Assembly (NCBI RefSeq): GCF_000003815.2
Contig: NC_049982.1
Coordinates: forward strand, 15,234,769-15,298,768
DNA from: Branchiostoma floridae
Lineage: Eukaryota; Chordata; Leptocardii; Amphioxiformes; Branchiostomatidae
Reading direction: 5' to 3'
DNA: 64,000 nucleotides
In this document: positions 17,301 to 56,379 of the stretch, piece after piece
Numbering within the stretch: position 1 is the first letter of the stretch
Layout: the number at the start of each line of letters is the position of its first letter
Made by a program: the position numbers and the translations under genes
Notes under the pieces: model-generated
Databases searched by the model: none
Seen by the model: only the letters and a program-made list of their open reading frames with translations
Told to the model about the DNA's origin: nothing

Positions 17301-20300
17301 AATTGTAGCGTTTAATGCATTTTTTGTTTCCTTTTGCAGGCATTTGTGTTCGTCCTATTCTGGTACCAGCTGCTGAACGGTTTCTCAGGCTCTGCACCAG
17401 GAGACCAGTACTACCTTCTCTTCTTCAACATCCTCTTCACTTCAGCCCCACAGGTCAGAGGTCATAGTCTGCTCCAGAAAGATGACTCACTTCTTTGTAC
17501 CAAAATTTGTGTTGGCTACAGTAGAAAGCAGCTGATGGAGTTAGATGTGGAAAGACACTGTAAATATGTGCTGTAGAATTGATTGGATTATCAGAAGAAC
17601 ATAATGTGAGACAACTCAATCCTCTTTGGTGCCAGGTGGCACGTGAGGCTTCAGGAAATCCCTTCATCTTGGTCACTATTCTTGTCTTAGGAGAATCTTC
17701 TCTTCTTAACTTCCTTCTCCATGCAATGTCACCAAGTCCACCTTGGTATCCCTCTCAATCTCTTTCCATGTGGCTTCCCCCTTTGCACAATGCTTGGTAG
17801 TCTTTCATATATGTAGCTATGTACATACATATGCGAATTAAATGGTCAATAGGCATTTATTTGTAGTGCTTGCACTCAACAGCATTTCAATATTTTGCCT
17901 TGACACAATATAGAAGGAATTGGGTTAGGCTTTAACAGATAACTTTGTAACTGCTTGCATCTCTTCCAACAGATAGTTGTGGGTGTACTTGACCAGAATC
18001 TCCCAGATGATGCCCTTAGCAGCTTCCCTGAGCTGTATGCTGTGGGGAGGGAGAGTCGCACTTACCGCAGGGAACACTTCTGGTGGAACATATGTGATGC
18101 ACTGTACCAGAGTGCTGTCATGTTCTTCATTCCATATGGGGTATGTTTTCATGTCAGCTACTTCATCTTATAAAGAAAAACATAATTATGTAGAAAGTAT
18201 CAGTCTGCTTAAGCATAAAGGCATGTTGGATGTGTCCACAATATTTTTGGCTTACCTGCACATTACTACACTCGGCACAAAAAGTTTGGAATATCAACTT
18301 CGGTTGATCATATTTCTGTTGTTTCTGCATAAATTTCAATATATTATATATCTATAGAAAGCTTGCCTGATTTTCTTTCCAATGGTATCAAACTCATTGT
18401 CATTGTTAACTCATGGAACATACACTAGGCCTGCTAACGTCAGTGGGTCACGAAAAAAAAGTGCCCAAATTCACCCGTTTTTGTTCAAAAACTGTATCGT
18501 CCGATTGTTATGGCCGCGGGTGACAATGATTCAAACAATCCTTTTATCACCTAACTTTTGGTTTACAGAACATCCAAGTTTCTTTTTAGCATATCTGAGT
18601 AGATTATTTTATGAGTGTAAATTCATGGAACGAGGACTAGGCCCGCTTACATACAGGAGGTCCTAAAGATAAAGTGCCAAATTTACCCTACTAAAGTCAA
18701 TCACTCCATTCTGCTCATTTTCTTCCGTCGGTATTAACTTGTGAATGAAGGCAAGTTGAATAAACAGGACATGTCAATCAAAGCTACTGTTACTCTTTAT
18801 TCAAGCAAAAAAATCTGAACCATGGCAAGAGGTGATCAATCGAATGCTAGCCATAAGCCGTAGGAAGGCCTAAGACTGTACTCCAGCATCCAATGGTCCT
18901 TGCTCTGTGTGGACTGGTGTTGTAATCTTGCAAAATGGCATTTGGTCCCATATTGAAGAGGTAGGATATTATTACGACTGGATGGAGGATGGTGTCCCTA
19001 TATCTCACCACATTGAAGTTGCCTGGAATGATTACGAGTCTTGTTTTTCCTATGGCGGTTATACCGCCCGAAACCATGACGCTGCCTCCACCACCAAATG
19101 CCGAAAGTTACTCTTGTCGTGTCAGCGTGCGGTTCTCCTTGCCGCATCCGCGCTTTGATTCTGCCATCCAACTATCGAAAGGGCAGAATCACACAAGTGT
19201 GCTAAAACCTTGTATGTTCCGTATACCAAATGTGAGGTGAGAAGAAGATTGATTGAACCAGTAACACACGCGCCAATATCAATATCAACAGGACGATACA
19301 GTGTTGAACAGAAGTAGGGGAATTTGGGCACTTTTTTTTCGTGACTCACTCATGTAAGCAGGCCTTGTGCTCGTTTCATGTGTTTACAATCATGATAAGT
19401 TTGACACCATAGGAAAGAAAATCACACAAGCTTTCTATTGATATATAATACATTGAAATTGATGCATAAATAACGGAAATATGATATACCAAAGTTGATA
19501 TTCCAAACTTTTTGTGCCGAGTGTAGTTGTATTGTTCTTATACATGTACGTTTACCATTGATTCAAATGTTGTAATGATTTTTTTTCCCATTTCAGGCCT
19601 ATGCGGATAGTGACGTGGGAATCTGGGAGTTTGGAATGACAGTGATTGGTGTTGCACTGGTGGTCACTCTGGCCCATCTGGCCATACAGATCAAATGTTG
19701 GGTAAGTTACCTTACATATACACTGAAGCATTGTACCTCGAGTGCTGTTTGATTAAAAAGGTCAAAATAAGCTTTAATATTTCAACCTCCTTTGTTTGAC
19801 AGTGATTTTGAACACTGAAGTGCCATGGTTTTGCTTTATGTGTCATTCCATTGTGCTGCTCAACGGTTGAAAAAAGAAAGCACATATGAATCAAAGGGTG
19901 TTGAACTTTCAGACATACCCACATGTGCTGATAATGCTGGCGAGCCTACTGCTGTATCTGATCTTCAGCTTGGTGTACTCTGCAAGCTGTGTCACCTGTA
20001 ACCCATTGGGGAACCCCTACTGGCTGTTCCAACATACCATCAGCACCCCTGAACACTGGTTGCTGTTGATTTTGACCACTATTATAGCCCTGTTTCCGAG
20101 GTAAGTCGCCTACAATAAGTTGTACCTGATGTCAGGTTCTCACTACTCACTTTACAGCACTAGCACTACTTAGTCTCTCACTTTATACATGTAGCATTGC
20201 ATACCTACCTACCTACCAGTCCTACATGTACATACCTACCTTGTCACTATCAAAGTTGACTCTCTGTATCTGAATTTTCTACCAAAACTGTGGTCTTTTT

Positions 20301-24196: not shown

Positions 24197-27100
24197 TTAA
24201 TGGAAGATAAAGTCAGTCGAGCCAACAGATGGTTGCTGGTCACTTGCACTGGCCTTGATAACAGAACCTGATGGTTGCTGGCCATCGTGGACATCTTCAG
24301 TCGAGCCACCAGATTGTTGGTCACTTTCACTGTCAGAATGTTGGAAGAATAACTCCATCTTCGAGATCTCAGAAGAGGCGCTCTTCTTAGGCGCAGGCTC
24401 GGCTAAAGAAGTAATAAAAAAGAAAGAAAAAAGTTAGTGGACTGTGCCAAGGGAAAAAAGGTTTTGTTACACATAACTAAACTTTCGTCCAACACAAAGG
24501 TATACACGGATCAAATTTTCAACCACCGCTGCCGCCTTCTTTAGGATTAGTACTAGTACTGTTAATCAATCAGTACTGATCCTGAAGAAGGCGACAGACA
24601 GCAGTGGTTGAAAATTTGATCCGTATATACCTATTGTACCATGATTACTACCAACACAGATGGGCTTCCATGACAATTTGAGAAAAGGTTTTATTAGGTA
24701 CAGGTACACGAATTTAAATGCATTAACAGTATTTTGAAGCTGCTTTGTACGATTTCCAGTATGGTTGAAAGTCTAGTTTTTTTTCCATTTTTAGAAACAG
24801 TCGAAAATTTATGTGCACACGGATGTCATCCATGTAATCAAATCAACATGGCCTTATATCATTTAGAATGGCAAAGATACATGTACGACAATCAACTTCT
24901 TACATCTTTAATATATCTTTGTATGTGATCAGCTTTATGACTCTACCAGACAGCAATTTCTGTAAGGAATTTGCAAAAGATAAAAAAGAATGTTGATCTC
25001 CAGGTTGAACCATTTACATGACTTTACAATACAATCCCGTGACCAACATGATGATGAGTATACAACATAGAGAGATATTCATGATAACACCTGTCAGTGT
25101 GCTGAGAATTCAAGGTACCTTGTATATTGGATGTTAGTACTTACGCTCATGATGGACCATGATGGCTTTGAAAAAGCCATGGTGACTCTGTTGTGCCAGC
25201 AGTTCCTCGTGAATTCGCACGGCTTCCGCGTGCTCAAACTTCTCCTGGGTGGACCGCAGCAGTTTAGCCTTGTCAAGGACTGGAAAGAGGCATGCAAAGG
25301 GTTTCAAGTATTAGGCCAGTCAAAAACTTGGCAGTGATGGATACTTTTTTGGGTACGTGCTCTGTCCATATGCCTGATTTTCCCAAATGACACTCTTAAT
25401 ATTATACTTACTTACTTTACTTTGGTCGAGCTCGAGCCAAGCTTGAAAGTCGTCTCCACTCCTCCCTGTCTTTCATCAAGGACTGGATTTTCCTCACATC
25501 ATGTAGGTCAGTGTGGGCTCTGAGATTATCGATGTAGTTGACTTTGGGTCTTCCCGGCTTTTCCAATTATAGTCCATTTCAAACATGCCCAGCAGCCATA
25601 TAATGGTGACTGGAGCAGGTGGCTATTTGACACACCCTATGTACCTGCTCACTGGTCTTCTGACATTGACCCCTTGTTCTGACACCCTCATGTTAGGGTA
25701 GGGTACATTCAATGACACACTCATCAGTCAGTCTGGGTCTTTCAGAAAAAGGAGAGGAATGAGCCCGTAATGTCCCCCAAGAATTTGGTCAAGCACACTA
25801 AATCACCTCTATCTGATCTTATTCATAAGGTTTTACAGCATCCAGACTAGAGGTTTGATGCCTTTGGGTTGGACTGAGTCCATGCATTGAACTAAAGCCT
25901 TCATGTCCCAACTGAAGGACAACCTGGTCACTAAATTCTAGTTTTTATGGGTTTTCAAAGAACCATCTAAAACAGTGTTTAGTTTGAGGACAAAAGGTTT
26001 TTAAATATTAGTGGAATGGGAAGCTGATGGCACTGTTCTGTTTTGCAGTATTTCACTTAGATCAGAGTAGGGAAAGCCTGGGTTTCAAGAAAGATAACAA
26101 TAACACTTACTCTTGAAGATGGAGAAAGTGATCAATCCAGTATATGCCATGATAGCAACAAGTCCACCAATGTTGACTCCTAGTTGATGCCAGGCAGCAG
26201 ACTGTCCATCATAGCCGCAGTAGAAGATACCCTTCTCCTTGTCCATAAAAGGACAAATGAATATACCCCACATTCCAGGTGCCAGGTGCACTGTGGGAAG
26301 GTACAAAGTAAAAGAGAGTTCACAGCCACTGTCACTTCTCACTGACAAAAGTTTTCCTTTTAGGACTGCTTCACGCTTGCTGCTCATCGGGACATCATAC
26401 TTATTGGCACCATCCTGAACATTTGTTGTTGTTTGTTTCTTTAAAACTACCAATAAATGCCGTGTTTTGGATTCTATCACCGTCACAACTGCACAAACAG
26501 AACTGTTGATACAGCAATATGAAAACCATATGATAGGGTTGAATGCCAGTTTAACTAATAGATGTAAGCCATCATAGATGGATTCCAATTACCCTGGAAT
26601 ATACATAATATATTACGCATTATTTTTGTCAATGAATCAATGGGCAGATTGCTAAGACTTAATGAAGTAGTAATAACAATCAGTGTAATTGTCTAACCTG
26701 CAGTGGTATCAATAGGGTCCTCAATTGGAGTAAACTTGTGCAGGCTAATGGACCACAAACAGTGAATAACGGCGCCCGAAGCTCCGATGAGTAGAGCACC
26801 GTAGTTAGTCACAACGTTAGCAGAAGCACAGACTGCCACCTAGACAAAACACAAGTCATTTTGGTCAACAACAGGCAAGGCTTGTCATCCATAATCTTCA
26901 GGATGGAAAGAGACTATAGTCAAATCAGAGCATAGCCTACCCTATGGAAAAGCAACATGTGCATGTACTACGGCATAGCCAATCTGAATTTGTATAGAGA
27001 ATGAACTTACAGTGCCTGCTAGGCATCCATTCACTACGATGCACAGCACATAGTAGTCATTGATCTTCTTGTGAACCAGCCGCTCAAACAGAATGGTGGC

Positions 27101-29458
27101 TAAACCACCAGATGCACAGGCCAGTCCTGTGTTCATAACAGTACGGGCTATGGCACCAGAGTCTCCACGTGATGATATTGCACCCTGAGTACTGCCATTG
27201 AAGGCGAGGAAGCCGACCATCAGGATAAAGAAACCTGTACAAAACCAAGTACATCACAAATAAACAAACAAAACAATGGAAACCTTGTTCTAATACCTCA
27301 TAATGCTTTATCTGACAACTCATAACCAATATAATTATGTATATGATACAATGCCAGGTGACCCTGCATTTGGAATATTTGGTTGCCTAAGCCTTTATGA
27401 GTGCTATTTTTATAGAATCAGTAATCATGACTGAGTCTATCTATCAACGTACATGAAAGATGCAGAATGGTTGATTTATATTTCTTACCCAAGGTGACCA
27501 GAGCTGGAGCAGACTCAGGGATGGCATGATCTTCAACTTCCTTAGCCAACTTTCTGCGACCCAATACCATGGCCCCCATTAGGGCAGCTGTCCCTCCGCA
27601 GGCATGTACAACACCGCTTCCAGAAAAGTCCTGAGTATCTCATGAAGAGTGTAATACTTTCTGTTAGTGTATGACTTTATGCAGAAGAAAAAATTCTAGA
27701 TGGGATTTTTTGTCATTTCTTAAGAAGACACAAGTTTGAAATGTTAGCATGTCAATGTTAGGCAACAAAATATGTTCTCATATTTATTTTGTTCAAAAAG
27801 GGTCATCTACTAAAAAAACCAGCACTAAAAAAACTGATATCTATTTTTGATAAAACGGAACGTCTTATTGCATCTCAGAGAGGGAAGCTGGAGAAGCATC
27901 GGGGTAATTGGGGAACCTTATGTTTAATTTGATTTCAGAATGTAGAAATAATCATGACATAATAAATATGATATAAAAATGATATTTGATTTAATGTGTT
28001 ACAATAATAACATGATGAAATGATTATAATAGTCATGATGTAATAATTATATGAAATGATGACATGTATGAAATGATATGATCTGTCCATAATGAGGTAA
28101 CAATATGACAATGATATGATCTTATGTGTTACAATATTATGGAAAATGATATGTGGTAATGATTTGATAACTAAAATGATAATGAGAAAAATGACATAAT
28201 AATTACATGATATGATTTGTTAAGTATATAATGTGGGCTGTTTGACAAGATATGCGAATATTTAGGGAGGCTCTGCTTTTTCTGTATCATAATTTATCAT
28301 TGACAATAAAATTATTTTAAAAAACCAGCACTGACGAGTTCACCCAAAAGCCTGAACAAGTTTTCTTTCACTTTCCATCGGAGACACATTTTTGCAAAGC
28401 TTTTAATGCTCTATTTACAGCGTGCACTACTTACCTGGAAGGTAAGACCATACAAATCAGAGTTGAGCCAGCCATAGTCACTCCATGCCCAATGAACAAC
28501 AGTTGGGTACACAAAGCCGGTGATGACGAAAGAGTAGATCAGGTACCCATGGTACGAGGTGCGACCAACCATGGCCCCAGACACGATAGCCGTGGCAGTG
28601 GCAGCAAATGAATATTGGAAGAATACATAGGTCAGTGCATCATCGCTCTCAAGATTGGTAAGGGCGAAGTGGTTCGTCCCCATGTATCCGCCGGTTGTTG
28701 GGCCAAACGCCACAGCATATCCAAAGAAGAAGTAGCCTACAGTTCCGACACCTACGGAAACAAGCCAACAGCCCTCTTGGTAGACATCAATACAATATGA
28801 TACTGCTCATAAGCCATACTTGCAAGGGCAAAGGTAAAATACTGCTAGCACTATAGAATACAAATGCTTACTGCTTCTACATGTATATCAGTTGTGGTGT
28901 GGTGTACATGTAACGTTACATTTGGCTTGAAGTTTTGTCTTGTATCGATGCCAAATCTGAAGAAAAAAGACGCATTGCATATGAATATGAAGTATTACTA
29001 TCCCACAGGAGCTGCTAAGGCAAAGGGTCGATTGGATATTAAATCAGGTAATCATGTCATGATGGCGAAAGAGTAGACCAGATCTGCCCATAGTATGAGG
29101 TAAGGCCAACCTTACCTAGATAGCATGCCCCCAATGATAGAAAGAGGGGACACTCGTTTTGTTTAGTGCTGTAGTCGACCCTGACTTTTCGCAGTCAACG
29201 ACCGAACGTTAGGGCAGAGACATGCTACTTACAAACGTCCATGACATTGTTGAGCAGGATGGCGAAGACGTTGGAGACCTTGACCGAACCGACTTCCAGC
29301 AGGGCGAAGCCCCCCTGCATGGTCATGATGAGGCAGCCGCACAGGATTTCCAGCAGTGTGTTCAAGCTCACGGCGAATACGTCTAGCTTGCCGTTGATAT
29401 CCGCGATCGCGGCCTCTGTGGCGTTCATCCGCCCGTCAAGAGTTTCCAGTGTCGCCAT
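24197..29458 (-). CDS. Ammonium transporter, AMT/MEP family, tandem copy A
   Basis: This gene encodes a multi-pass membrane protein predicted to conduct ammonium/ammonia. Coding exons on the minus strand are 29233-29458, 28435-28751, 27489-27630, 27011-27234, 26698-26839, 26111-26290, 25145-25279 and 24197-24402. Phases agree and give 523 residues, usual for the family. The N-terminus has an NAT sequon at Asn12, consistent with an external N-terminus. The first membrane helix holds a GFALLEVGSV core. Exon 2 holds the FFQYSF segment and the YPTVVHWAW segment (Trp165 aligns with the ammonium-site Trp of AmtB). Exon 3 begins at the conserved Asp182 and has His190; exon 6 begins at VHLAPG with His352, completing the twin-His pore. 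Exons 7 and 8 encode a charged, Ser/Gln-rich cytosolic tail. It differs from copies B and C by MQGGF instead of MQAGF in helix 1. A second possible first exon lies at 33356-33569. The family call is secure; the substrate is inferred. Confidence 0.9.
24501..24630. repeat. Palindromic hairpin in intron 7 of AMT copy A
   Basis: Inverted arms of about 55-60 bp read TATACACGGATCAAATTTTC on the left and return as GAAAATTTGATCCGTATATA on the right. The inner arms CCGCCTTCTTTAGGAT and ATCCTGAAGAAGG flank a short centre with CAGTACTG. It lies about 100 bp from the exon 8 acceptor. Related palindromes sit at the same place in copies B and C. It is either a MITE inserted before the duplications or a structured intronic element. 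Confidence 0.8.
25407..25564 (-). mobile_element. 3' end of a LINE (endonuclease/reverse-transcriptase type) in copy A intron 6
   Basis: On the minus strand an open frame reaches a stop with the features of a LINE C-terminus: GRPKVNYIDNLRAH followed by a DREEWRRL motif. It is followed by an AAGTAAGTAAG microsatellite tail. The flanking sequence is continuous in copy B near 38325 and copy C near 51025, so the paralogues give the empty site. AATATTAT on one side and AATTAT on the other could be the target duplication. It is a 5'-truncated RTE-like or related non-LTR insertion. Confidence 0.75.
27827..28318. mobile_element. Copy A-specific insertion with 14-bp direct flanks
   Basis: The word AAAAAACCAGCACT occurs at about 27813-27826 and again at 28319-28332, bracketing about 490 bp that is absent from the same intron of copies B and C (near 40615 and 53890). 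The interior is AT-rich with many degenerate ATGATATGAT-like units (about 27940-28250). AATAAA and an A-rich end precede the right flank. A long target duplication plus an A-rich end suggests retroposition. No coding frame is seen. Confidence 0.6.
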
Positions 29459-29459
29459 A

Positions 29460-29700
29460 ATGGAAATACAGCTCTCCGCCGACCTGAAACAAAAAAAATG
29501 AGTTGGTTGTTTAGAGAAAAATGAATCGTTAGCACCAGAATCTACCGAATATGTTCTTACTTACAACGGTCGACTAAATTGTTGCCATGAGAACGTTCTA
29601 TGATTTGTTGGTGCTTTTTAGATTGTGACGTAGGATCGACTGTATCGACCGGGAATAAATCCATATTTGGAAGAAGCTGAGTTGTGTTGATCCTGACAAC
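29460..29700 (-). promoter_or_regulatory. Candidate proximal promoter of AMT copy A, CCAAT box altered
   Basis: This block upstream of the proximal first exon resembles the sequence upstream of the three other AMT first exons. Where those carry ATTGG (inverted CCAAT on the gene strand) about 150-165 bp before the ATG, this one has ATTTG at 29603-29607. A shared TCGACCGGGAA word is retained. The role is inferred from conservation and position. Confidence 0.45.
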
Positions 29701-29780
29701 ACAACTGTTACTGCTTCTATATCATCAGTTGTGGTGTGGTGTACATGTACATTTGGTTTGAAGTTTTTTCCTATATCCAT

Positions 29781-29942
29781 GTAGCCTGGGGTTACCATCC
29801 GAGTAGTAGTTCGCTCCTATGTTCGCCTCTGCTGAACAGCAGAGAAGCGACAGTATATAGTGGACTATCATAAGGACTATCAGAGCGAGAAGCTACTGTT
29901 TATGGTGTATAATAAACGCCGGAGCGAACTACTTTCCGGATG
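29781..29942. mobile_element. MITE-like palindromic element, 8-bp TATCCATG target duplication
   Basis: The element has inverted arms around AGTAGTTCGCTCC near the left end and GGAGCGAACTACT near the right. TATCCATG occurs on both sides (29773-29780 and 29943-29950). A related unoccupied sequence near 28929-28964 carries a single TATCGATG. The 8-bp duplication suggests a hAT-type origin. A partial relative lies at about 34010-34085 and a diverged piece near 57270. Confidence 0.75.
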
Positions 29943-30540
29943 GTATCCATGCCAAATAAGAAAAAAATCTCAGATTGGTATATTGACTTGAAACTTGGAA
30001 ATCATAAATTTAGACCATCGTAAACGAAATTCCGGTCAAACCCGGTGCTTTCTATTCTTGAATCAAAATTATGTAATGACTTCGCGGAATTACGGCGCTT
30101 TTGCATTACGCCAACGAAATCTATGATAAGTCTTATACTTTCAGAAACTAGACGGTTTGCTCATTCTTACTCAAGAGATTTCCTGTTGGTTTGAAACCTA
30201 AACAATAGGTTCAAAACAAGAGGGAAAATTACACAAACTGCACCTGACTTCGGGTCGTATTTGTGACAGGAAAACGATATACGATCGGTTCAAAAATCTA
30301 TATCAGCCAAAAAGGAGACTGAAATGCTGTGAATGACTTGAAATTTAGAAGATACCCTGTTATATACTCCAGCGACAATCTTTCTTGGAAGGGGTGTTGA
30401 CGCACGGAGTCATGTAAGTAACTAACGGACCACTTCCTCTCGCGGAAGGAAAAGAAAACTGCATAGAAGTAGAAATCTTGGCATGGCAACAATCGAATCG
30501 TAGGTTCGGTCAGAGCCCTCGAATTCCGGAGGTCAACGAC

Positions 30541-31500
30541 CTACCTACCTACCTACCTAGTTCCTTGACCTCCAGGTCGTTGGGGGGACAAGGTAGACAT
30601 GAAGATCGAGAGTTGCCTCCAGGTTCGTCTTTCCCTAGCCAGGGTTATCCTCTCCCATAGGCTGAGGCCCGTCCAGTCAGCGATGTTATCCTGCCAAGCT
30701 TTTCGCTGCCGTCCACGGCGACGTCCACCTTCCACCGTTCCTTGTAGGATCGTCTTGGCCAGGTTGTTGTGTCGGGTGACGTGCCCGAACCATTGCAGTT
30801 TACGTCTTTTAACTGTTGCTAGAAGTGTTTCCTGCGGGCCAACGAGGCTGCGTACCTGTTCATACTCGTTCGTGACGTGTTCATAGTACGACTACGAAAT
30901 GTGAAGTAGCTTACGCAGGCACAAAGGCTCGGATCTTCCTCTCTGTTGCTGCCAATAGAGTCCAGGTCTCACACCCATACAACAGTATGGACACAACTAG
31001 GGTTTTGTAGAGCTTGAACTTGACAGAAAAGCTGATGTTGTTGGATTTCCAGATCCTGGACAGACGAGCCATTGCAGATGTTGCCATGGCAAACCTCCTC
31101 CGTACATCTGTCTCGCTAGTACCGTCTTTTGTAATGGTCCCTCCTAGGTAAGTAAATGTTCCCACCTCTTCCAGCAGTTCCCCGTTCATAAGGATGACTG
31201 CATGTGTCTCATCCGTACTGTTCATCATCACCTTGCTTTTCTCGGTGCTGACCTCCATGCCGAACGATCCAGTACTCTCTGTTAGCTTGTCTGTGAGGTC
31301 TTGGAGTTCTGTGTTGCTGCCGGCTAGAAGGTCAATGTCGTCTGCAAAGCGAAGGTTGCAGATGCGTCTGCCACCAATGGAGATGGAGGTGTGATGATCG
31401 TACAAAGCGTCCTGCATGATCTTCTCCAGATACAGGTTGAACAAAACTGGTGACAGCAAGCATCCCTGGCGAACCCCGACTGTTGTCCTGAAGAACGACC
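30541..31500 (-). pseudogene. 5'-truncated, frameshifted non-LTR retrotransposon (reverse transcriptase)
   Basis: The minus-strand frame at 30911-31549 carries reverse-transcriptase signatures: VRQGCLLSPVLFNLY, then the catalytic FADD box in RFADDIDLLAG, then TYLGGTI and LLYGCETWTL. A different frame at 30553-30735 supplies a LINE C-terminal segment (RRRGRQRKAWQDNI and a WRQL motif), so at least one frameshift separates them. The 3' end abuts a TAGG-type tetranucleotide run at about 30541-30560. The likely group is RTE-like or a related endonuclease-RT clade. The region around 48757-48850 (upstream of copy B) matches both flanks without the element, dating the insertion after the duplication. 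Confidence 0.88.
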
Positions 31501-31752
31501 TACACATGCACAATCCACAAATTTCACAGTCGAACCGCAGGTCGCTCAAGTCTCTAAATACGACGTTTGTCGTGTAAACAACTGCCTGTTGTGCAGCAAA
31601 AAGACATCATACCTACATAATGTTTATACTTTTTCGCATCTACATGCTTCGCGCAGTACAACCATGTAGATATTTTGTGCATTACAAACTGACAGCAAAC
31701 GCCGTAGCATTAGAAACATTGGCGATTTTTGGTCAGTTTTCTCGTGCTTATC

Positions 31753-32111
31753 CAGGCCTCGAAATTCATTTTTGGGATTAGGTGCACTGGTGCACCCAGC
31801 TTAAAAAATTGGGTGCACCAAAACATTTTTGGGTGCACCACTAAAATTTAAGTAGAATGTCAGAAAATCCTAATAATAAAACTTAGTTACAAGCTATCAA
31901 ATTCTTAAACAAGTACCATGACAGACATTTTTATTATCTTTCTAACGCTTTGTAGATGTCAAGAAGAATATGATGTATACCAGTATACTTTAATATATTT
32001 ACATACATAAGCCTATGAAAATATTTGGGTGCACCCACAGAAAATAATTGGGTGCACAGCTCCAATTTTAGGTGCACCTGGGTGCACATGCACCCAGTAT
32101 TTCGAGCCCTG
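31753..32111. mobile_element. 359-bp MITE-like element with CAGG-CTCGAAAT inverted ends
   Basis: The left end CAGGCCTCGAAAT is mirrored by ATTTCGAGCCCTG on the right. The interior has many GGGTGCAC/GTGCACCC words in both orientations near the ends. TTATC lies on both sides. The related sequence in copy C intron 1 (about 54834-54850) runs straight through GCTTATCGTTT without the element, giving the empty site. No coding frame. The superfamily is probably hAT, based on the terminal CAG and short duplication. Confidence 0.75.
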
Positions 32112-33355
32112 TTATCGTTCACCTAGATCCAAAAAGCTAAATTCACAGTGTGATAGTCAATTCCCACATCTTTCGTTTTATCCCAAAGTCCCCTGGATCA
32201 CTTTTACCGGAAACGGGTTTGCCCCGAAATAAATTGCGACAATACCCACTTTGCCATGGTGAAATTTTCACCGAGGTACAGCTATAGCTACCGCGCCTTC
32301 CCGTGTTTTGGCTACATTTTGCGTGGTATAACAGAACTCATTTCTCGGTATTAGACTCTGTACGAACGCAGCTGTCACATGCAATGTAATAAATGACTTG
32401 GTGACAGTCACGTACAGGCAGACAAAGGTTTTAGTACGCGGTACCGATCTTTCAAAAACCTCAAATTTGAAGATGATCAGATTCGAACACCGGAGTTCTA
32501 TCTTGGTTCGAAAGATGGAAGTCAGCCAGTACGTTCCATTTTCGCTCCGCGGGGGTCAGGTAAGGTCAGGCATAATGTTGCAACTATCAGCCGGTGTTTG
32601 GAAAAGTTCACAAAACTAACGGCTCAAGTTTTGCCGTCTCAAATGGATTTCCTGAGACACTTCCAATCAAGACTGATATCACATGAAAGCCAGAAAAGTA
32701 AGATTTCTATACAAGTGTGACAAATCCCATTGAATAAAGTGTGAGTTCTGTAAAAACATAGTGAAAGGTTATTGTGTCCGGCTTCTCCATTGAAAAAGAC
32801 ACCCTAGAATTTAACCTGTTCCTATAAAATTTCTGGGCAGACCCGTTTCCGGTCAAATTAACCAGGGAACTTTGGTATCAATTCAAAGGTAAAGAAATGG
32901 GCAATCATGCTATGTAATTAGCTAATCAGATCTCTGTCAACTGTAAAAGATACTAGCACCTAAAGACTGCCCCAAATCGCCTATGTTTCGAAAGCCATAA
33001 TGTTCGCTGTCACTTTGCAATGCAAGAATTATTTACACAGGTGTACGGGGCGAAACTCGTAGAAGTGAAAAAGTATAAACATTGTGCAGGTATGAGGTCT
33101 TTCTCCTGAACAGGTAGTTGTTTACACCACGCAGGTTAAATCGCTTTCGCGACAAAAGCCGTATCTAAGAAAATGACGCGTTCTACAGTGACCTGCGGTT
33201 CGACTGATAGTACTAGTATGAAGTGTGACCAACCTTATTTAGATAGCATACCTCCAATGATAGAAAGAGGGGGCACTATTGTTGCTTACTGCTGTAGTTG
33301 GCCTTGACTTTTCGCTGTGAACGACCGAACGTTAGGGCAGAGACATGCTACTTAC

Positions 33356-33569
33356 AAACGACCATGACATTGTTGAGCAGGATGGCGTAGACGTTGGTGA
33401 CATTGACCGAACCGACTGACAGGGCGAAGCCTGCCTGCATGATCATGATGAGGCAGCCGCACAGGATTTCCAGCAGTGTGTCCAAGCTCACAGCGAATAC
33501 GTCTAGCTTGCCGTTGATGTCCGCGATCGCGGCCTCTGTGGCGTTCATCCGCCCGTCAAGAGTCGCCAT
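33356..33569 (-). pseudogene. Extra AMT first exon upstream of copy A (alternative exon or relic)
   Basis: This exon matches the first exons at 29233, 48284 and 55967 from ATG to donor (GTAAGTAGC). It is 214 rather than 226 nt because of two in-frame deletions: nine nt near the start (residues ETL lost) and three nt in helix 1 (LLEVGSV becomes LSVGSV, losing the acidic residue). The phase at the donor is unchanged, so it could splice to copy A exon 2. VMDVC has become VMVVC. Its upstream block keeps an intact inverted CCAAT. Its surroundings from 31680 resemble copy C intron 1 and exon 1, while 29060-29700 and 33220-33790 are near-direct repeats. It is either a working alternative first exon or a decaying duplicate. 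Confidence 0.8.
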
Positions 33570-33800
33570 GATGGAAATACAGCTCTCCGAAAAACCTTTT
33601 ACATGAGTTGGTTGTTTAGGAAAAATGAACCGTTACAACACAAAGAGCACAAATGTGGGTAGAATCTATCGAACGAGTTCTTGTTGATTAAATTATTACC
33701 ATGGAAACGGCACATCTATGATTGGTTGCTGCTATCTAGATTGTGACAAATCTTTTTATATCGACCGGGAACAATACCATATTTGGAAGAAGCTGAGTTG
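33570..33800 (-). promoter_or_regulatory. Candidate promoter of the extra AMT first exon
   Basis: ATTGG (CCAAT on the gene strand) lies at 33721-33725, about 155 bp before the ATG. TATATCGACCGGGAAC follows at about 33757. The same order is seen upstream of the copy B and C first exons. Confidence 0.45.
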
Positions 33801-34953
33801 TCCTTAGTTGACCCTGACGTTCGATCATCAACGACTGCATTTAGATGTGATAGCCATTCTGGTATGGTAGCTTTATACCGGCTATCAGCCTTCAAACCTA
33901 TCACCATCTAAATGATCCGGAAAATTTCGTGACTTGAACAAGAGGAAGAGGCAAAAATCATGTATTTTCAATGAAAATTTACAGGCTAGTAGAACCTGCT
34001 AAGTAGCTAGCCTGGTTACCATCCGGATAGTAGTTCGCTCCTATGTTCGCTTCTGTTCAACAGCAGAGAAGCGTCATATACGGGGAGATCAATAAGTTTT
34101 CGGCCTCACGCAGAAAAAATAAGCACACCTTGAATTTATAGGCACAATTTCATAGTGTGAAGCCTTTTATTAATATCATCCATATTTCAAATCACTGCAG
34201 TCATTACTTTCCAGGCATTCGTTTTTTGAAAATCAGAGGGTAAGATGCGAGAAAGAAAAACAAGGGTGAATTGTGATCAGACATGTGTGGTCGAGTTCCC
34301 CATGCCGTAAATTCTTTGTTATTAACGAAGACATTGTCAAAATGTTTGATAATGATTCTCTTCTTTTTTCAAGCAGAAAGAAGTGGGTGTGCAGCAAGTT
34401 TTCTCGTGAAAAATATATACGGAGATATGAATGTGTGAAGGATGATACATCTGCGAGGTTGTAGTGACGATATCGTTGCCAAGGCTGTTGCTAATAAGGC
34501 TGTTAAGTTTCAGATCGTACTCCACAACAAAACTGATACATGCACAGAAGTAATTTTTCTGTACTATTTTGTTCTGATTACCTCAGTAGAAGTATAAGGA
34601 ACAGTGTTGCAATGTTTGACGAAATACGTTATTTCTAGTTGTGTCTTTCAGGATCATTAGCAAAACTGTTGCCAATGTGGTACTCAGGCATGTTTCAAGA
34701 AAAGAACAACAGAGAGTCAAGTTCTCTGACGTGTCATTTTGTCATCTTGTAAATCATGCATAACTGAAAAATATTATAATTGATTGGAAATGTTTATTTG
34801 GGCTCTACATGGGGGATATAGGGATACCCGACAGGGAATTACCTTGATCTTACACTTTTTTCGCTCTAAACCGTTATTTAGTACCTTAGCTACTAAATCA
34901 CTGCGCATCTAGTATGTCGTACACAGTGGAAAGGCTCTGCATATGTGTTACCA

Positions 34954-35459
34954 CACTACCAAAAATGATTTTTTCTGTGTATCTTGTTTTTCTTCCTCAC
35001 AGAAAATTTATCTTCCAGGAAGAAAATTATTCTGTCCCCAAGAAATCTGAGAAAAACGTGCTTGTCCATGGACAAGCAAATTTTTGCTTGAATTTTTTTA
35101 GACATTTTTGAGATTAATATTCTTACACCAAGAATACTTTTCTTACATCAAGAGCAAAAATTCTTGTATTTCTTAAGAGTTTTGAAAAAAACAAGCATTT
35201 CTAGATTTTTTTTCTTGCACCATAAGAAAAAACAAGAAGATTTTGCTTAAAGTTCTTAGGTGTGAGAAAAAATTTTCTTCACCAAAGAAGAATAAGAAAA
35301 TTGTTCTTTGCATGAGAATTAAGATTTTTTGGTAGATTCTTGTTTTGCTTGTTTTGCTTAGAATTTTATTCTACATTTTCTTCCTGCAAGAATATTTTTT
35401 CTTCATATAAGAATTGTCCATGGGGTAAGCAAAACAAGCAAAAATCATTTTTGGTAGTG
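34954..35459. mobile_element. About 506-bp inverted-repeat element rich in TTCTTG/CAAGAA words
   Basis: The left end CACTACCAAAAATGATTTTT is mirrored by AAAATCATTTTTGGTAGTG at the right end. Inside, short words such as CAAGAATA, TTCTTGTTTTT and GTCCATGGACAAGC recur in both orientations, so most of the element can fold on itself. No protein frame is convincing. It fits a MITE or foldback element; the target duplication is unclear. Similar words (CATATGTG, ACC) flank both ends. Confidence 0.7.
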
Positions 35460-37042
35460 CAGGACTCCACATATGTGACACCGTTGGATACACAGGACAC
35501 GTGAATGCGGGACTACGTCATGCAGGAATACGTCATGCATATTGAAAATTCATCTAGAAACTATAACAAAGGTCAAGGTCCAGAATAAGGCTAGTCTGAT
35601 ATGACTTCAAGTTTTTGTACTTTTCTTGATCAAGTTCTCTGACACATAAATTTGCTCATGTCATCTTTATAGAAACGTGAGTCTTGATGACTTTTGTACA
35701 GAGAACCCTCTTAAAAAAATCGATTAATTGCACGAAAAAACTAAGCTAAGGACGGAGGGTTGGGGTCGGCCAAATTGGGTCATTCTTTGTATGTGTGATA
35801 GCCTTATACTATAGGTATGTCAACCCTCCTTCAACTTAAAAAGTCACGTGCAGGCCAGGCAGACGGTGAGTAACTGTCTACCTACTTTTGTCTTCCGAGG
35901 CAGATGGACGCTAACACACACAAGAATTATAGGTATGTAGAACTATGAATAGCCCTATTAAAATCCTCGAGGTTTTATTTCGTTATTGAGGTCTAGGTTC
36001 CCCAAAGAGGCCCTCGGAAATCAAACAATTAATGGCCGAAATTTACTGACGCTCATAACGTAACGTTACTATTCTGATGAAAATACGAACATAAGTTTTC
36101 TGCATGTATTTCCACATAGGAAATGGGTTCCTACTTTTACAGACCAAAAGGTGAGAATGAAGCATTGAATTTAGGAGGATGTACTAGGGAGTTACTTGAA
36201 CTACTAAAAGCAGGTTTTTAATCTCTTGACATTTTGGTAATTTCTAAGGCGCATTACCTCCCATGCTCCCTCTGCACATTGGAGGTAATACACCTGGTGG
36301 GTGGTGTTAATGTTGCTGGAGAGAGGAATATTAATCGTTGTCTCATTGGGCCACACATAACGCGAACCGTATCAGAGTTCTTAATGTTTTGGGGAGGGGG
36401 CATGACCACAATAAATCACCATTTAGCTTCATTGAATTTCATTTTGTTTGTTTTGGGTCATGTGGCATTGAAATTGTCACGAGTCAGGAAGAGAAAACAC
36501 ATTGTCATCTCCTGAATCTTACAGGTTTATGTGAAATCTGTAGGACCTTGCTGCATGTACATTGTATCTTCTTCAATAATCAAAAGAGGCAAAAAGACAA
36601 GTTGCCCGATCAGGGCTGTAACTTTAGCAGCACTGAGTTGTATTGTATTGTATTGTAGGAGATGAATCGTAAATGGTTCCTTACAAATCTGAAACGCATA
36701 AGACTAAAGCTGCTTATAGGAAAAGCAATGTAATCATACACATTTATCATATGTGTGAACTACGTGGGGAATGAAAATGAAAGCATATCTGATCTATGCT
36801 GCACTTTCGGAATGACATTAAAACAGTAACTTCTTCAGTTGTGCTTTGCTGTAACAGTAAACTCCAGGTGCATTCCCAACTGTACATTTTCATTTAGTTT
36901 AGATTTGGACACTCTGAGAAAGAGTGGCATAAAAATGAGATGTTACGTTAAATATGTAAAGTAAGCTGCTATAAAAGTATGATTGTTTAGCTGTGCTGGT
37001 GAATGTCTACACCACACTGTTCCTGTTCCTCATAACAGATTA
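35460..37042. other. Intergenic region and 3' flank of AMT copy B
   Basis: From 35460 to about 36420 I see no gene or strong repeat. From about 36421 the sequence becomes the copy B 3' flank, closely matching the copy A flank from 23571. That junction (after ATTTAGCTTCATT) marks one edge of the duplicated unit. Confidence 0.6.
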
Positions 37043-40000
37043 TTAATGGAAGATAAAGTCAGTCGAGCTAACAACAGATGGTTGCTGGTCACTTGCACTG
37101 GGCCTGACACCAGATTGTTGGTCATCTTCATTCGAGCCGCCAGATTGTTTGTCACTTTCACTGTCAGAATGTTGGAAGAATAACTCCATCTTCGAGATCT
37201 CCGAAGAGACGCTCTTCTTAGGCTCGGCTAAAGAAGTAATCAAAAAGAAAGAAAAAAAATTAGTGAACTGTGCCAAGGGAAAGAAAGGTTTTGTTAGTAG
37301 AGTTTAGAGTTTTGTTAGTACACATAACTAAACGGAAAGGTTTTGTTAGTACACATAACTAAACTTTCGTCCAACACAAAGGTATACACGGATCAAATTT
37401 TCAACCACCGCTGCCACAGCGGTGGTTGAAAATTCGATCCGTGTATACAATAGCTGCCGCCTTCTTCAGGATCAGTACTGTTAGTCAATCAGTACTGATC
37501 CTGAAGAAGGCGACAGACAGCAGTGGTTGAAAATTTGATCCGTATATACCTATTGTACCATGATTACTACCAACACAGATGGGCTTCCATGAAAATTTGA
37601 GAAAAGGTTTTATTAGGTACAGACACACGAATTTAAATGCATTAACAGTATTTTGAAGCTGCTTTGTACGATTTCCAGTATGGTTGAAAGTTTAGTTTTT
37701 TTTTCATTTTTTATAGAAACAGTCGAAAATTTATGTGCGCACGGATGTCATCCATGTAATCAAATCAACATGGCCTTATATCATTTAGAATGGCAAAGAT
37801 ACATGTACGACAATCAACTTCTTACATCTTTAATATGTCTTTGTATTTTTTCTTTATGACACTATCAGACAGCTATTTCTGTAAGGAATTTGCAAAAGAT
37901 AAAAAAGAATGTTGATCTCCAGGTTGAACCATTTACATGACTTTACAATACAATCCTGTGACCAACATGATGATGAGTATACAACATGGAGAGATATTCA
38001 TGATAACACCTGTCAGTGTGCTGAGACTTCAAGGTACCTTGTATAAGATGTCAATACTTACGCTCATGATGGACCAGGAAGACGTCTTTGAAAAAGCCAT
38101 GGTGACTCTGTTGTGCCAGCAGTTCCTCATGAATTCGCACGGCTTCCGCGTGCTCAAACTTCTCCTGGGTGGACCGCAGCAGTTTAACCTTGTCAAGGAC
38201 TGGATAGGGTCATGCAAAGGGTTTCAAGTATTAGGCCAGTCAAAAACTTGGAATGTGGCAGTCAGGGATATTTTTATTGGGTACGTGCTCTGTCCATATG
38301 CCTGATTTTCCCAAAGGACACTCTTAATATTATAGTCCATTTCAAACATGCCCAGCAGCCATACATAACCAATAATGGTGAATGGAGCAGGTGGCTATTT
38401 GACACACCCTATGTTCCTGCTCACTGGTCTCCTGACATTGATCCCTTGTCCTGACACCCTCATGTTAGGGTAGGGTACTTTCAATGACACACTCATCAGT
38501 CAGTCTGGGTCTTTCAGTAAAAGGAGAGGAATGAGCCCGTAATGTCCCCCAAGACTTTGGTCAAGTACACCAAATCACTTCTACCTTATATTTTTGTGCC
38601 TAGGGTTCTACAACATTAAGAGGTTTGATGCCTTTGGATTGGATTGGGCTAATGCCATTAAATACATGCATTGAACTGAATGAAGCCTGTAATGTCCCAT
38701 CTGAAGGACAACATGATCACTAAATTCTAGTTTCCCTGGGAATTTAGACATGTGACCTATGGGTTTTCAAATAACAGTCAAAAACAGTGTTTAGTTTGAG
38801 GACAAAAGGTTTAAATAACAGTGGAATAGGAAGCTGATGGCACTGTTCTGTTTTGCATTATTTCACTTAGATCAGAGTAGAGAAAGGCAGTATTTCAAAA
38901 AAGAAGAATGACACTTACTCTTGAAGATGCAGAAAGTGATCAATGCAGTATATGCAATGATAGCAACAAGTCCAGCAATATTGACTCCCAGTTGATGCCA
39001 GGCAGCAGACTGTCCATCATAGCCGCAGTAGAAGATACCCTTCTCCTTGTCCATAAAAGGACAAAGGATTACACCCCACACTCCAGGTGCCAGGTGCACT
39101 GTGGGAAGGTACAAAGTAAAAGAGAGTTCACAGCCACTGTCACTTCTCCAGCCATGGATGACAAAAGGTTTCCTCTATCAGCCTGCTTCACGCTTGCTGC
39201 TCATCAGGACAGCCAACTTATGGCCACCAACCATCCTAACATTTGTTGTCGTTTGTATCTTTAAAACTACCAATAAATACCAAATATTGGATTCTATCCG
39301 ACCGTCAACAGTTATATGGCAACATTACAACCATATGATAGGGTTGAATGCCAGTTCAACTAATAGATGTAAGCCATCATAGAAGGATTCCAATTACCCT
39401 GGAATATACATAATATACAAGGCATGATTTCTGTCAATGAATCAATGTGCAAATTGCTGAGACCTACGGTAGTATAATGAAAGGGCCTCGATCCCATGGC
39501 CCAATAAACAGCATCTGTGCAATTGTCTAACCTGCAGTGGCATCAACAGGGTCCTCAATTGGAGTAAACTTGTGCAGGCTAATGGACCACAAACAGTGAA
39601 TAATGGCGCCTGAAGATCCGATGATTAGAGCACCATAGTTAGTCACAACGTTAGCAGAAGCACAGACTGCCACCTAGACAAAACACAAGTCATTTTGGTC
39701 AACAACAGGCAAGGCTTGTCATCCCAAATCGTCAGGATGGAAAGAGACTATATTCAAGTCAGAGCGTAAGTCTAACCTGTGGAAAAGCAACATGTGCATT
39801 TACAACTGTATATCCAGTCGGAATTCGAATACAAAATGAGCTTACAGTGCCTCCCAGGCATCCATTCACCACTATGCACAGCACATAGTAGTCATTGATC
39901 TTCTTGTGAACCAGCCGCTCAAACAGAATGGTGGCTAAACCACCGGATGCACAGGCCAGTCCTGTGTTCATAACCGCACGGGCTACGGCACCAGAGTCTC

Positions 40001-43000
40001 CAACTGATGACATTGCACCCTGAGAACTGCCGTTGAAGGCGAAGAAGCCGACCATCAGGATAAAGAAACCTGTACAAAACCAAGTACATCACAGATAAAC
40101 AAACAAAACAATGGAAACTTTGTTTTTATGATTTCTAATGCTTTATCTGACAGCTAATACAATCATGTATATGGTAATTGTCCATGCATTTGGAATATTT
40201 GGTTGCCAAATTACTCCTTAGCCTTCATAAGTACACATGCATTACAGAGTCAGTAATCATGACTGAGTCTATCTTTCAACATGAAAGATGCAGAATGTGT
40301 CATTTATATTTCTTACCCAAGGTGACCAGAGCTGGAGCAGACTCAGAGATGGCATGATCTTCAACATCCTTAGCCAACTTTCTGCGACCCAATACCATGG
40401 CCCCCATTAGGGCAGCTGTCCCTCCGCAGGCATGTACAACACCGCTTCCAGCAAAGTCCTGAGTATTTCATGAAGAGCACAATACATAATGTTAGTGTAT
40501 GCTGGAGAAAAAATTTAATGGACTTTTTTGTCATTTCAAGAAAGAAAAAACAATTTTGAAATGTTAGCATGTCAATGTTAGGCAGAAAAATATGATTTCA
40601 TATTTTGTTAAAAAAACAAGCATGCACACGAGCACTGATGTGTTCACCCCCAAAAAAAGCTGAACCAGTTTTCTTTTACTCTCCATCGGAGACACATTTT
40701 TGCAAAGCTTTTAATCCTTTATTTACACCTTGCGCTACTTACCTGGAAAGCAAGACCATACAAATCAGAGTTGAGCCATCCGTTGCCACTCCATGTCCAA
40801 TGAACAACAGTTGGGTACACAAAGCCGGTGATGACGAAAGAGTAGATCAGGTACCCATGGTACGAGGTGCGACCAACCATGGCCCCAGACACGATAGCCG
40901 TGGCAGTGGCAGCAAATGAGTACTGGAAGAATACCCAGGTCAGTGCATCATCGCTCTCAAGATCGGTTAGGGCGAAGTGTGCTGTCCCCATGTATCCGCC
41001 GGTTGTTGGGCCAAACGCCACAGCATATCCAAAGAAGAAATAGCCTGCAGTTCCAACACCTACGGATACAAGGCAACAACCCTCTTGGTGCTGTACAATG
41101 TTACACAGTATGATGAACATCGATATCAATATCAATACAGTATGATACTGCTGAAAAGCCATATACTTGCATTGGCAAAGGTGAAATACTAGTACTGCTC
41201 GCAGTCTATTTAACACAAATGCCCAATGTGGTCTAGACGCGTGGTTTGAATTGGTTTGAAGTTTAAAGTTCTGTCCTGCATCGATGCCAAATCTGAATAA
41301 AAGACACAATGCATTGCATGTAAATAAGAAGCATCACTACCCAACAGGAGCTTATAAGGCAAATTCAAGGTTCGATTGGATATTAAATCCGGTGATCATC
41401 TTTCTCTGCAAGAACACGTTTTGCCAGTTCCACAGAAGCAAAGCATCCTTTTTTCCTCCATAACCGACAGCTTCTTTCCTAGAACTACATCGTTATGGAA
41501 CGGGTTTTGACCAGTACAACCATGTAGATAGTTCTTGCATCGCAAAATAGCAAAAACACTTAAACTGCTAAAAAAAATGGAATTTTGAATCATCACCTGC
41601 CCAAAACTGATTTCTCCGTGCAAGAATGGACTTTTCGAATGGACATTTCTTATCTGGAGCAGCCAAAAATACATCTGTTTGAAATAGGACTTTGACATAA
41701 TCACCAAAGTCCAAAAATGAATTTTTAAAAAATTCTCTACTCTGTGCAATAGTGGCCTCTTCCAGCACATCCCATTTAAAATTGCAAAATAGACCAGTCC
41801 AAAAATACCCCCTCCACTCCCACTGACAGACTTTGACATAATCACGAAAGTCCAGAAATGAATTTTGGAAAAAATACATTTTGAAGTGGCTCATAGCAAA
41901 AATTATACATGGGTCATTTGAATAGAAATATCCAGTGCACCCCTTTTCCAAAATTTAGGTCATTTGGTTGTAAAACCATGGTACAAGAACCATTTGGGGT
42001 ATTGGCCCACTCTACCCTTGTGCCAAATTTCAGGTGAGTTGGTCCATGACGACGGAGATGAATCGCTTTGTAGATTGGACGAGAGAAAGAAAGAACTAGA
42101 AAGGCCTGGGTATTTGCTTATGAGCAATTTTCAATCCACCCTCCTCCTTATGCAAAAATGGACTGTTCCAAATTTGAATTTTAAAAAAACAGCTATGCGA
42201 GAAAAGACACTTCATATAATGTACATTTAAGGTCTATAAATCGCCCCAAATCCCTGTCCTTTGAACTCAATCCGTGTCAAGGAAAGAAGACTAAATTTTT
42301 CGTCAAGCAGAGAAATGATGATTTTGCGTGCCTTATCAGCTACAGGAAGACCGAGGTTCTGAACTTCTTATCAACGTTCAACCGCTAAAATTTTATCATC
42401 TGAAAAAATTCATCGCTCTTTCTCCCTCTTGCCCCGAAACTACGGTACGTTTATACTAGTACTGTACTGTAATCACATGTTTATTTCGTGATTACAACAC
42501 ACACACACAATTACGCCAGTGATTCACACATTAACAAAGAAGGCACTGTTGTTCTTCGAAAAATAACACATTTATTTCACAAACGGAAATTCTGTCAATA
42601 ACAGTTAGTTTTTTAGAGATGCAGCAAGTTATGCGAACCCAGACTTAAATGGTATTAGGTACATACAGCAGACAACAACGCTGGTGACGATTTGAAGTTT
42701 TCCTGTTTATTTACACAAGAAAAAGAAATAGTCCTGTAGAATTGTCAAAACTGGTCGACGGTGAGCTATCAGAAGACTGAGTATCGTGCCGGAAGAGAAT
42801 TTATGAGACTCAATCGGCGTAATCCAAATGTGCAACGGAATTTCTTGTACATTCTACGGTCAAGTGTTTCTGGCGTAAATTGTACAGAAACGTAAGGAGA
42901 GAGTTGAAATTCAAGGAGATACTGTAAATGCAGAAATGTTCACAGCGGTTTTATGTTCTCGGTTGTCGTGGTGGCCACTTCCACCGCGAACATTTTTCCA

Positions 43001-46000
43001 TTAAAACCATCGTGAACACTCTATGTTTCCGTTAAAAAAAAGGTGATGATCCGTCAACATGTTCATGTTTACTCATTAATGTAAATGAGCGTCATTTGCA
43101 TAATTAATATGTACTGGACATTTCTCTTTCTCAGCTACATATGTGACAAATTTGATAGTCCTATCATGGAATTCGGTGTATTTATGAACTTTCCTCATTG
43201 ATTATGCAAATTGAATGATGATTTTCATAATTAGTATAACATTATGTAAGTCATCACTAAGGTTGTGTGTGGCCCAGGGCTAATGAAACAGAGATGGGCA
43301 CCGCCCTATGTGCCATCTTGGCGCGGGAAGGGTTTAACTTTAACTTGATAATATCAACTAAAAAACGGAGTGGGAGAGGTCGGAGGTCAAGCAAAATCAT
43401 AGTAAATCAAATACAAATTGTACTGAAGTAATGAAACAAAATAGTATTTGATAGCATATAAATCAAATAGCAAAAAAATGATAACAATCATAATCATTTG
43501 ATACCTGGGAAATTAATTGCACATCTTGAATAATGATTAAAAAAAACATGATTGGAACCAAGAGATGAGTTTCATTTTTACCACCATGAAGTGAGTGGCT
43601 GGTTTTTGTCTTACTGTGTCTTTACCCACTCTCTTAACTTTGTCTTCAAGACTTCTTGGTTTGTTGTTGTAATACTTGTAGGGAGTGTGTAATAGGCTTT
43701 TATACATCTATTTTGAAATGTTCTGGTCGATGCATTTGTACGGGGTTTAGGTTGTACGTAGCCTCCCCTTTGTGATAGCCTTATGTTATGGTGATGTGCG
43801 GTGTTTATATTTCTTGAGTTGTCATACATACATTTTTGGTTCTTAAGTCGTCACTATCTTATGGAAGGCACAGATTGTTGTTGTAAACATCCTTTCCTTC
43901 ACTGACGGCCAACATAGTCTGTCAAGCATGTATCACTTCTGAGCTTGTTGTTTGGGATGCATTTGCGGCTAACCTTGCAGCTCTGTTTTGGATCATTTGT
44001 AGTCTGTCTAGCTGTGTTTGTGTTGTTGAGAAGAGAATCCCGGAACAGTAGTCAAGATGCGTTAGTACAAGTGATTACCTGCATGTATGCAGGTATGGTT
44101 TTCACGGGCGTGGGAACTTTTGGAAGCTGGGGATTTAGGGCGCTGTATCTCGAGAACGGATGGTGCGAGCACAACGATTTTTGGTACGTGGGTTGGGGGT
44201 GGTGGCTTGACACTCAGGTGTGATTTTGGGCCTCCTGGCACTTGAACTTGACATTGCAGGTGGCATTTTTTGGGCACTTTTGGCGCTGTGTGTCCGGAAC
44301 GATACGCGGGATTGCAACGATTTTTGGTGCATGGGTGGGGGGTTGTTGCCTGTTGCCTAGGATTGACTTTGGGCCTTGTCGCGTTTGAACTTGACGCGGC
44401 AGGTCGAATTTTGTGTCCGGGAGGGGGTTTTCCGGAGTTATATCTTCTGAACGGTTGGTGCGGGCGCGATGATATTTGGCACATGTGTCGGCGGTGGCTG
44501 AATAATTCTCTATTTTGATTTTGGCGCCCTTGGTGCTTGAACTTGACATTCCAGGTTACCTTTTGTGCGGGCACGAGGCGTGCGCTGTATCTCCGGAACG
44601 CAAGGTGCCATTGTGTTGCCATTTGGTACATGAATTGTTGGTGGTGTCCTGGTGGTCAGGTTTGATTTTGGGCCTCCTAGTGCTTGAACTTGATACTGTA
44701 TAGGTTGATCCTGTTTTCGTGTGGTTGGGGCATCCCCCTAATATCTACTTGGTTGTGAAAACAGGTGACGGTCATCTGGTTAGCAGGGGCCTACATGTAG
44801 GTCACCTTCAATGTATTGGGTTACTTTGTATCCCCTGTTTGTGCCAGATGCTGCTGCTGCCAGATGATGCTTCAGCTCCTGCCGGATAATATATCGGTGT
44901 TGTATTGGTTACCTTTGCCAAAATGGCTAAGGTTATGTTTTGGACTTGTGGGTCTGTGTGTCTGTGTGTTAACAGCATAACTCGAGAAGCCTTGGATGGA
45001 TCCCGATGATATTTGGTAGGTGGGTAGGGGTCGGGAAATTGAAGGTCAAGTTCGATAATGGGTCCCCTAGCGGCTTGCTAAGGTACTGCAGCAGAACCTC
45101 AATCTTTTATATTATATATATATTATATATAAGACATGCTTTGGTTGTGATTTTTTAGTGGTAGATAGCCATTGGGGCAGAGAGTAAGTGCTGTAAGTTT
45201 GGACCCCCTAGCGGCTTCTTTAGAACTGCAGTCGCCGATTTCCTTTCAAACTTTGGACGAGAATAACTCGAGAATGTGTTGATGAATCGTCATGATTTTT
45301 GGTATGTAGATAGCCCAAGTAACAATATACATAATGAAATACTAATTATGCAAATCAGCAGCTAATTTGCATAATTAATGAGGAAAGTTTATAAATCCAT
45401 TTCATGTCATGATAGGACTTTCAAACTTGTCACATATATACAGGAGAAAGAGAGAAATATCAAGGCAAACTAATTATGCACATGACGGCTTCATTTGCAT
45501 AATTAATGAGAAAATATAAACGTGTTGACGGGTCGTCATGATTTTTGGTATGTAGATAGCCAAAGGGAAGACTTACATGATGGAATTCTAATTATGCAAA
45601 TCGACAGCTAATTTGCATAATTAATGAGGAAAGTTTGTACATTTGCATAATCTATGCCTAGTTATGTACAATTATCCAGACAAACAGACAAACAAACACA
45701 TAGAGGCCGAAATCGTCGGAGGAGCGACAGAGGGCTACCAGCCTTCAAGCTCCTGACTGCAGAAACAGGCCACGGAGTCTCTGCAGTTCAGGTACATTCA
45801 GGTAAATTCAAGTAAATTCAGACACAGACACAATCAACACCATACCCACCCACCTTAACAACAGACCTGATAGCACACAACGTATCAGCATAATCCAAAA
45901 CAATACATGCAGGCCTGAGGTCTAGGAACTCTTGTTGGATTACTGTTTTTAGTGTGTCTCCAGGAAAGTAATCTTTATACTTTCTGATTGTTGCTGTGGC

Positions 46001-56192: not shown

Positions 56193-56379
56193 GATTGAAA
56201 ACAGCTCTCCGAAAACCTTTTACATGGTCTTACATGAGTTGGTTGTTTAGGGAGAATGAACCGTTACAACTCAAAGAGCACAAATGTGACCAGAATCTAT
56301 CGAATGGGCTCTTATTTACAACGACTGACTAAATAGCTGCCTATGGCACCTCTGATTGGTTGGTGTTTCTTAGATTGTG
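56193..56379 (-). promoter_or_regulatory. Candidate promoter of AMT copy C
   Basis: Inverted CCAAT (ATTGG at 56355-56359) lies about 165 bp before the ATG in the block shared by all AMT first exons. Confidence 0.45.

Follow-up and report, generated by a model that had tools for sequence, protein, structure and literature searches.

Three ammonium transporter (AMT) genes lie in tandem, all on the minus strand, in the 64,000-nt stretch of Branchiostoma floridae DNA analyzed here (the window), and one of them, gene A, carries two homologous blocks comprising a putative promoter and a first coding exon. This arrangement is probably the product of a tandem duplication of the promoter and first exon; the gene most likely starts from the proximal exon, and the distal unit is probably a relaxed copy. 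The gene models of A, B and C were assembled by combining open frames with splice sites and with alignment of the genes to one another, and the features under discussion are collected in Table 1. The two blocks of gene A are direct repeats with an offset of about 4.12 kb; they share 80.7% identity across 628 aligned columns (E 2.6e-149). The initial annotation had recognized this repeat, although its limits (29060-29700 and 33220-33790) and its distance (4.15 kb) were slightly off. It had also correctly given both exons the same start, donor and phase: the ATG is found at 29458 in the proximal and at 33569 in the distal exon, and both end with GTTT/GTAAGT (29233 and 33356, respectively) in phase 1. 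From either exon the reading frame continues across the junction with the exon 2 acceptor (28751), and splicing from the proximal one generates a 523-aa Ammonium_transp protein. As had been described, the proximal exon is full length (226 nt), whereas the distal one (214 nt) lacks 12 nt in frame, as 9 plus 3 nt. Genes B and C possess a single homologous first-exon block each, against two in gene A. These counterparts, the tandem junction and an acceptor-like site in the proximal block, all described below, had been missed.

Table 1. Features of the AMT array discussed in the text; positions are counted from the first nucleotide of the window.
Feature	Position	Strand	Remarks
AMT gene A	24197-29458	-	523 aa, eight coding exons, frames open
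AMT gene B	37043-48509	-	517 aa, eight coding exons, frames open
AMT gene C	49691-56192	-	520 aa, eight coding exons, frames open
Exons 2-8 of gene A	24197-28751	-	downstream of either first exon; open, in frame
Proximal duplicate block	29091-29697	-	part of intron 1, exon 1, upstream region
Distal duplicate block	33214-33818	-	homology continues further with B and C
Proximal first coding exon, gene A	29233-29458	-	75 codons + 1 nt
Distal first coding exon, gene A	33356-33569	-	changes at codons 3-5, 46, 54-55, 60, 74
First-exon block of gene B	48215-48754	-	homologous to gene A blocks
First-exon block of gene C	55889-56450	-	homologous to gene A blocks
Intron-1 segment S of gene A	28857-28950	-	second copy at 29698-29781
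S', second copy of S	29698-29781	-	directly upstream of proximal block; tandem junction 29697/29698
Acceptor-like site	29484-29500	-	T-rich tract + CAG, first exon base 29483, 25 nt before proximal ATG
CCAAT place, proximal block	29603-29607	-	CAAAT in gene sense (+ strand ATTTG)
CCAAT box, distal block	33721-33725	-	+ strand ATTGG
Small inverted-repeat element inside S'	29787-29951	.	limits by eye; relative at 34008
LINE-like retrotransposon fragment	30545-31509	-	reverse transcriptase domain; limits by eye
Terminal-inverted-repeat element between blocks	31520-33210	.	limits by eye; arms 31569-31748, 32955-33130

The trace of the duplication was found next to the proximal block. Segment S of intron 1 recurs there as S' (79.8% identity over 94 columns, E 3.6e-15), the signature of a tandem duplication; the duplicated unit began within intron 1, took in exon 1 and extended into the upstream region. 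Homology ends at 29697 in the proximal copy, while the distal copy runs on to 33838 with gene B and to 33835 with gene C, as expected if the distal copy alone were still joined to the original upstream flank. Comparison of the four blocks (proximal, distal, B and C), which come from one genome and offer few sites and no outgroup species, yielded 16 informative sites. Twelve of them join the proximal and distal blocks, including three synonymous changes at codons 40, 44 and 71, and 1 and 3 support the other two topologies; by part, the respective counts are 5/1/2 upstream, 3/0/0 in the coding sequence and 4/0/1 on the intron side. Grouping the two gene A blocks improved the log-likelihood by 11.3 units (8.8 on the non-coding sites alone), with a parsimony bootstrap of 0.987. 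The blocks thus appear to stem from a local tandem duplication inside gene A, after A had parted from B and C in this region. A unit of about 0.84 kb (approximately 28857-29697; intron 1, exon 1 and into the promoter) would have duplicated in tandem, transposable elements would then have stretched the intron part of the second copy, and the outcome would be two promoter-plus-first-exon units ahead of a single set of exons 2-8.

The duplication is old. Outside the exon and promoter, the copies differ by 0.131 (S versus S'), 0.169 (a part resembling exon 2) and 0.099 (intron beside the exon), which is comparable to the divergence of introns 2-6 among the genes (A-B 0.147, B-C 0.164, A-C 0.193), so that the duplication is nearly as old as the genes themselves. 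The introns place A nearest to B, whereas the first-exon blocks and the protein place B nearest to C, a conflict that may reflect sequence exchange between parts of the array (a mosaic history); this possibility lowers the trust that can be placed in the sister relation of the two gene A blocks. In this context, the distal block might alternatively be what is left of a fourth AMT gene, once located between A and B, after deletion of its body. A deletion with one end upstream of the proximal block and the other in the first intron of the lost gene would have left an identical junction, the divergence of the blocks is close to that of genes A and B, and gene conversion between neighbors could mimic the grouping of the gene A blocks. 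However, the blocks of gene A group together against B and C, the distal exon being sister to the gene's own first exon. Traces of exons 2-8 searched for in 29700-36400 gave no convincing match, the best local scores being 19-26 compared to 349 for exon 1, and the trace of exon 2 at 33216 is itself a piece of the duplicated block. A lost fourth gene fits less well than a local duplication inside gene A; set back by these scores and by the tree, it is kept as a minor and very improbable explanation because gene conversion could mimic that tree.

The 4.12 kb offset between the blocks corresponds to the 0.84 kb unit plus inserted DNA, namely the small inverted-repeat element, the long interspersed nuclear element (LINE)-like fragment, for which the frame 30911-31606 matched RVT_1 (E 5.1e-15), and the terminal-inverted-repeat element. 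A relative of the latter is present in intron 1 of gene C (54574-55888), apparently at a different insertion point. Decayed copies of part of exon 2 (about 28515-28600) were also observed in intron 1 of gene A (29054-29140), where the copy adjoins the first-exon block and has a truncated counterpart at 33214-33290, and in intron 1 of gene C (54454-54540). These exon-2-like copies point to an older and presumably separate local duplication.

In the distal exon, codons 3-5 are missing and codons 54-55 (Leu-Glu) are replaced by a single Ser codon; in addition, the exon carries the private replacements T46I, K60N and D74V, and private silent changes at codons 20 and 29. The residues T46, L54, E55, K60 and D74 do not vary among A, B and C, and changes at these positions argue against full function of the distal exon. 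Among five solved relatives compared, 8qj3, 8qpf and 6eu6 retain E55 and D74, which the more distant 2b2f and 6ejh lack; these two residues are thus typical of near relatives only. When gene A is spliced with its distal exon, the score against the PF00909 profile is 278.8 bits, i.e. 10.5 bits below the 289.3 bits obtained with the proximal exon. The proximal exon probably supplies the N-terminus of most or all of the AMT-A protein, and the distal unit would be a relaxed, slowly degenerating copy, either silent or the source of a minor transcript encoding a modified first transmembrane segment.

The upstream regions of the two blocks, which are putative promoters, could be aligned, with 49 differences in 220 sites. 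The initial annotation had reported an inverted CCAAT kept in the distal block and changed to ATTTG in the proximal one; both states are present, but the gene lies on the minus strand and the box is therefore a forward CCAAT. In gene sense it is located at -156 in the distal block, at -153 in B and at -167 and -278 in C, and is absent from the proximal block; at the aligned place, the other three blocks share it. With both orientations counted, the window contains 124 CCAAT sequences (1.9 per kb), and the loss of one was accordingly rejected as proof of a dead promoter. A CC(A/T)6GG motif is present in the proximal, distal and B blocks and not in C, and a TATA(A/T)A motif in the distal block only, B having CATAAAAG instead.

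We then consider the rates at which the parts of each block have changed. Private changes (in the order proximal, distal, B and C) number 22, 10, 9 and 15 upstream, 5, 8, 3 and 4 in the coding sequence, and 1, 2, 8 and 6 on the intron side; the corresponding branch lengths are 0.189, 0.084, 0.094 and 0.117 upstream and 0.027, 0.043, 0.014 and 0.018 in the coding sequence. It had been proposed that promoter and coding integrity are split between the two copies. The direction agrees, with 22 against 10 upstream changes and 5 against 8 coding changes plus the 12-nt loss, although the contrast is weak (sign test p 0.050 upstream and p 0.58 in the coding sequence; Fisher p 0.094 for reciprocity).

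Several observations weigh against the proximal exon being the working start and the distal unit a relaxed copy, in addition to the narrow block comparison and possible sequence exchange mentioned above. The main unexplained fact is that the distal upstream region has changed at about the slow pace seen in B and C, which is unlike a dead unit beside a working proximal promoter. The frame, ATG and donor of the distal exon are intact and both of its indels are in frame, and the private changes of the proximal exon are likewise mostly replacements. In the codon alignment of the two exons, nonsynonymous divergence (dN) is 0.058 (9 changes) and synonymous divergence (dS) 0.060 (3 changes). Replacements are rarer than intron-side changes (9 of 161 versus 19 of 142 sites, Fisher p 0.028), which indicates that the pair was under constraint for at least some of the time and favors a working past for at least one exon, possibly both; silent changes (3 of 52 sites) are not significantly rarer than intron-side ones (p 0.20).

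The slow distal upstream region, the open distal frame and the scarcity of replacements would also fit true alternative first exons, with both promoters active in different cells or stages and two AMT-A proteins differing within their first 75 residues, as would the shared start, donor and phase and the CCAAT and TATA-like site retained in the distal upstream region. The open frame is a weaker argument than it seems. It was compared to a neutral simulation (8-16 substitutions, six settings of 20,000 runs, with indel sizes hand-picked from the observed alignment gaps), which tests the ATG, frame and stops and not the donor: when no indel was introduced, the distal frame remained open in 0.78 of the runs, a fraction that fell to 0.24-0.32 for one indel and to 0.17-0.21 for two. 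As a fraction of 0.17-0.32 of the neutral runs with one or two indels stay open, the open distal frame was rejected as evidence of use. Moreover, residues typical of the family have changed in the distal exon where the first transmembrane stretch ends, and a strong acceptor-like site, with first exon base 29483, stands in the path of distal transcripts; its use after the distal coding exon leads to a stop after 90 codons. Regulated use of both exons appears unlikely to us. Of the two outcomes put forward in the initial annotation, alternative first exons or a dying copy, the decay of the distal coding sequence fits the second better, which gives that proposal partial support. Because the distal upstream region evolves slowly, both this use and the one considered next are nevertheless retained.

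The acceptor-like site itself is a new feature, noticed post hoc. With a generic matrix, from which all acceptor and donor scores given here derive, it reaches 11.74, to be compared with 3.5-11.8 for 21 AMT acceptors. Acceptors as strong occur at 0.14 per kb on the minus strand of the window, this one is the best within 29400-33560, and the other three blocks contain no acceptor above 4.28 at the matching place. Distal transcripts could thus splice into the proximal exon at 29483. Labor might then be split within the gene, the distal promoter driving a transcript whose leader donor (e.g. 33603) is joined to this acceptor and the proximal first exon being turned into an internal coding exon; a donor restricted to the leader would give the full proximal protein under the distal promoter, and the fastest divergence is indeed that of the proximal upstream region. 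We regard this as quite improbable, since the site was found after the fact and scored with a generic matrix, and the leader donor is weak (2.86, such scores occurring at 9.6 per kb) and would face competition from the donor of the distal coding exon, use of which would yield a frameshifted product. A mini-intron in the proximal leader (donor 29565, acceptor 29483) is possible on paper, although donors of at least 5.4 occur at 3.3 per kb.

As a sequence, the arrangement is of the known variable-first-exon kind, UGT1 in miniature. In UGT1, according to PMC1885805 and PMC3325998, homologous tandem first exons with their own upstream regions share constant exons, and first-exon copies arise by tandem duplication, some becoming pseudo-exons in a process of birth and death. 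Gene A similarly has tandem homologous first exons of equal donor phase, each with its own upstream sequence, before exons 2-8. Unlike UGT1, it has two copies only, encoding near-identical protein, one of them with losses at conserved positions; its variable part is without a known substrate role, and separate use of its two exons is hypothetical. Like the duplication in gene A, the tandem exon duplications of PMC9013439, which include unannotated copies, were found from sequence; there too, an exon is copied inside a gene with its splice phase intact. The unit of gene A differs from those by including the start codon and upstream region, which would make the choice one of promoter and not of mutually exclusive splicing. 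If the distal unit is merely a relic, the locus offers a commonplace example of how first exons are born and die. Should RNA started at the distal unit enter at 29483, the locus would represent complementary loss of promoter and coding function within one gene, for which the paralogues B and C would serve as built-in references.

The spliced proteins of A, B and C all fit the profile of the AMT/Mep/Rh transporters (PF00909), with 289.3, 305 and 306.6 bits, respectively (cut-off 23.2), over 382-383 of the 399 profile positions, and comparison of the gene A protein with the PDB gave matches to 28 distinct ammonium transporter or channel sequences (E up to 0.001). What sets this array apart within the family is that one member of the tandem trio has its first exon in duplicate and that the C-terminal tails of the A, B and C proteins are dissimilar. 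AMT genes have duplicated independently in various animal lineages, as reported in PMC6687202. Searches of the amphioxus or Branchiostoma ammonium-transporter literature returned no title on this locus, and 'ammonium transporter' appeared in none of the matches listed when it was combined with alternative first exons or promoters. A pattern scan of bacterial and archaeal contigs matched 35 stretches, with 0 relatives by tblastn, and Rfam gave 0 matches at gathering thresholds.

Further repeats were observed around the other genes. Pieces of 30176-30544 recur in changed order directly upstream of the gene B block (48756-49012), beside a motif resembling the end of the inverted-repeat element. 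Upstream of gene C (56385-56650), there are extra tandem copies, of about 60-70 bp each, of a segment found upstream in the other blocks. Finally, frames resembling pieces of a P4-type ATPase gene were noticed by eye on the plus strand at 6600-17600.

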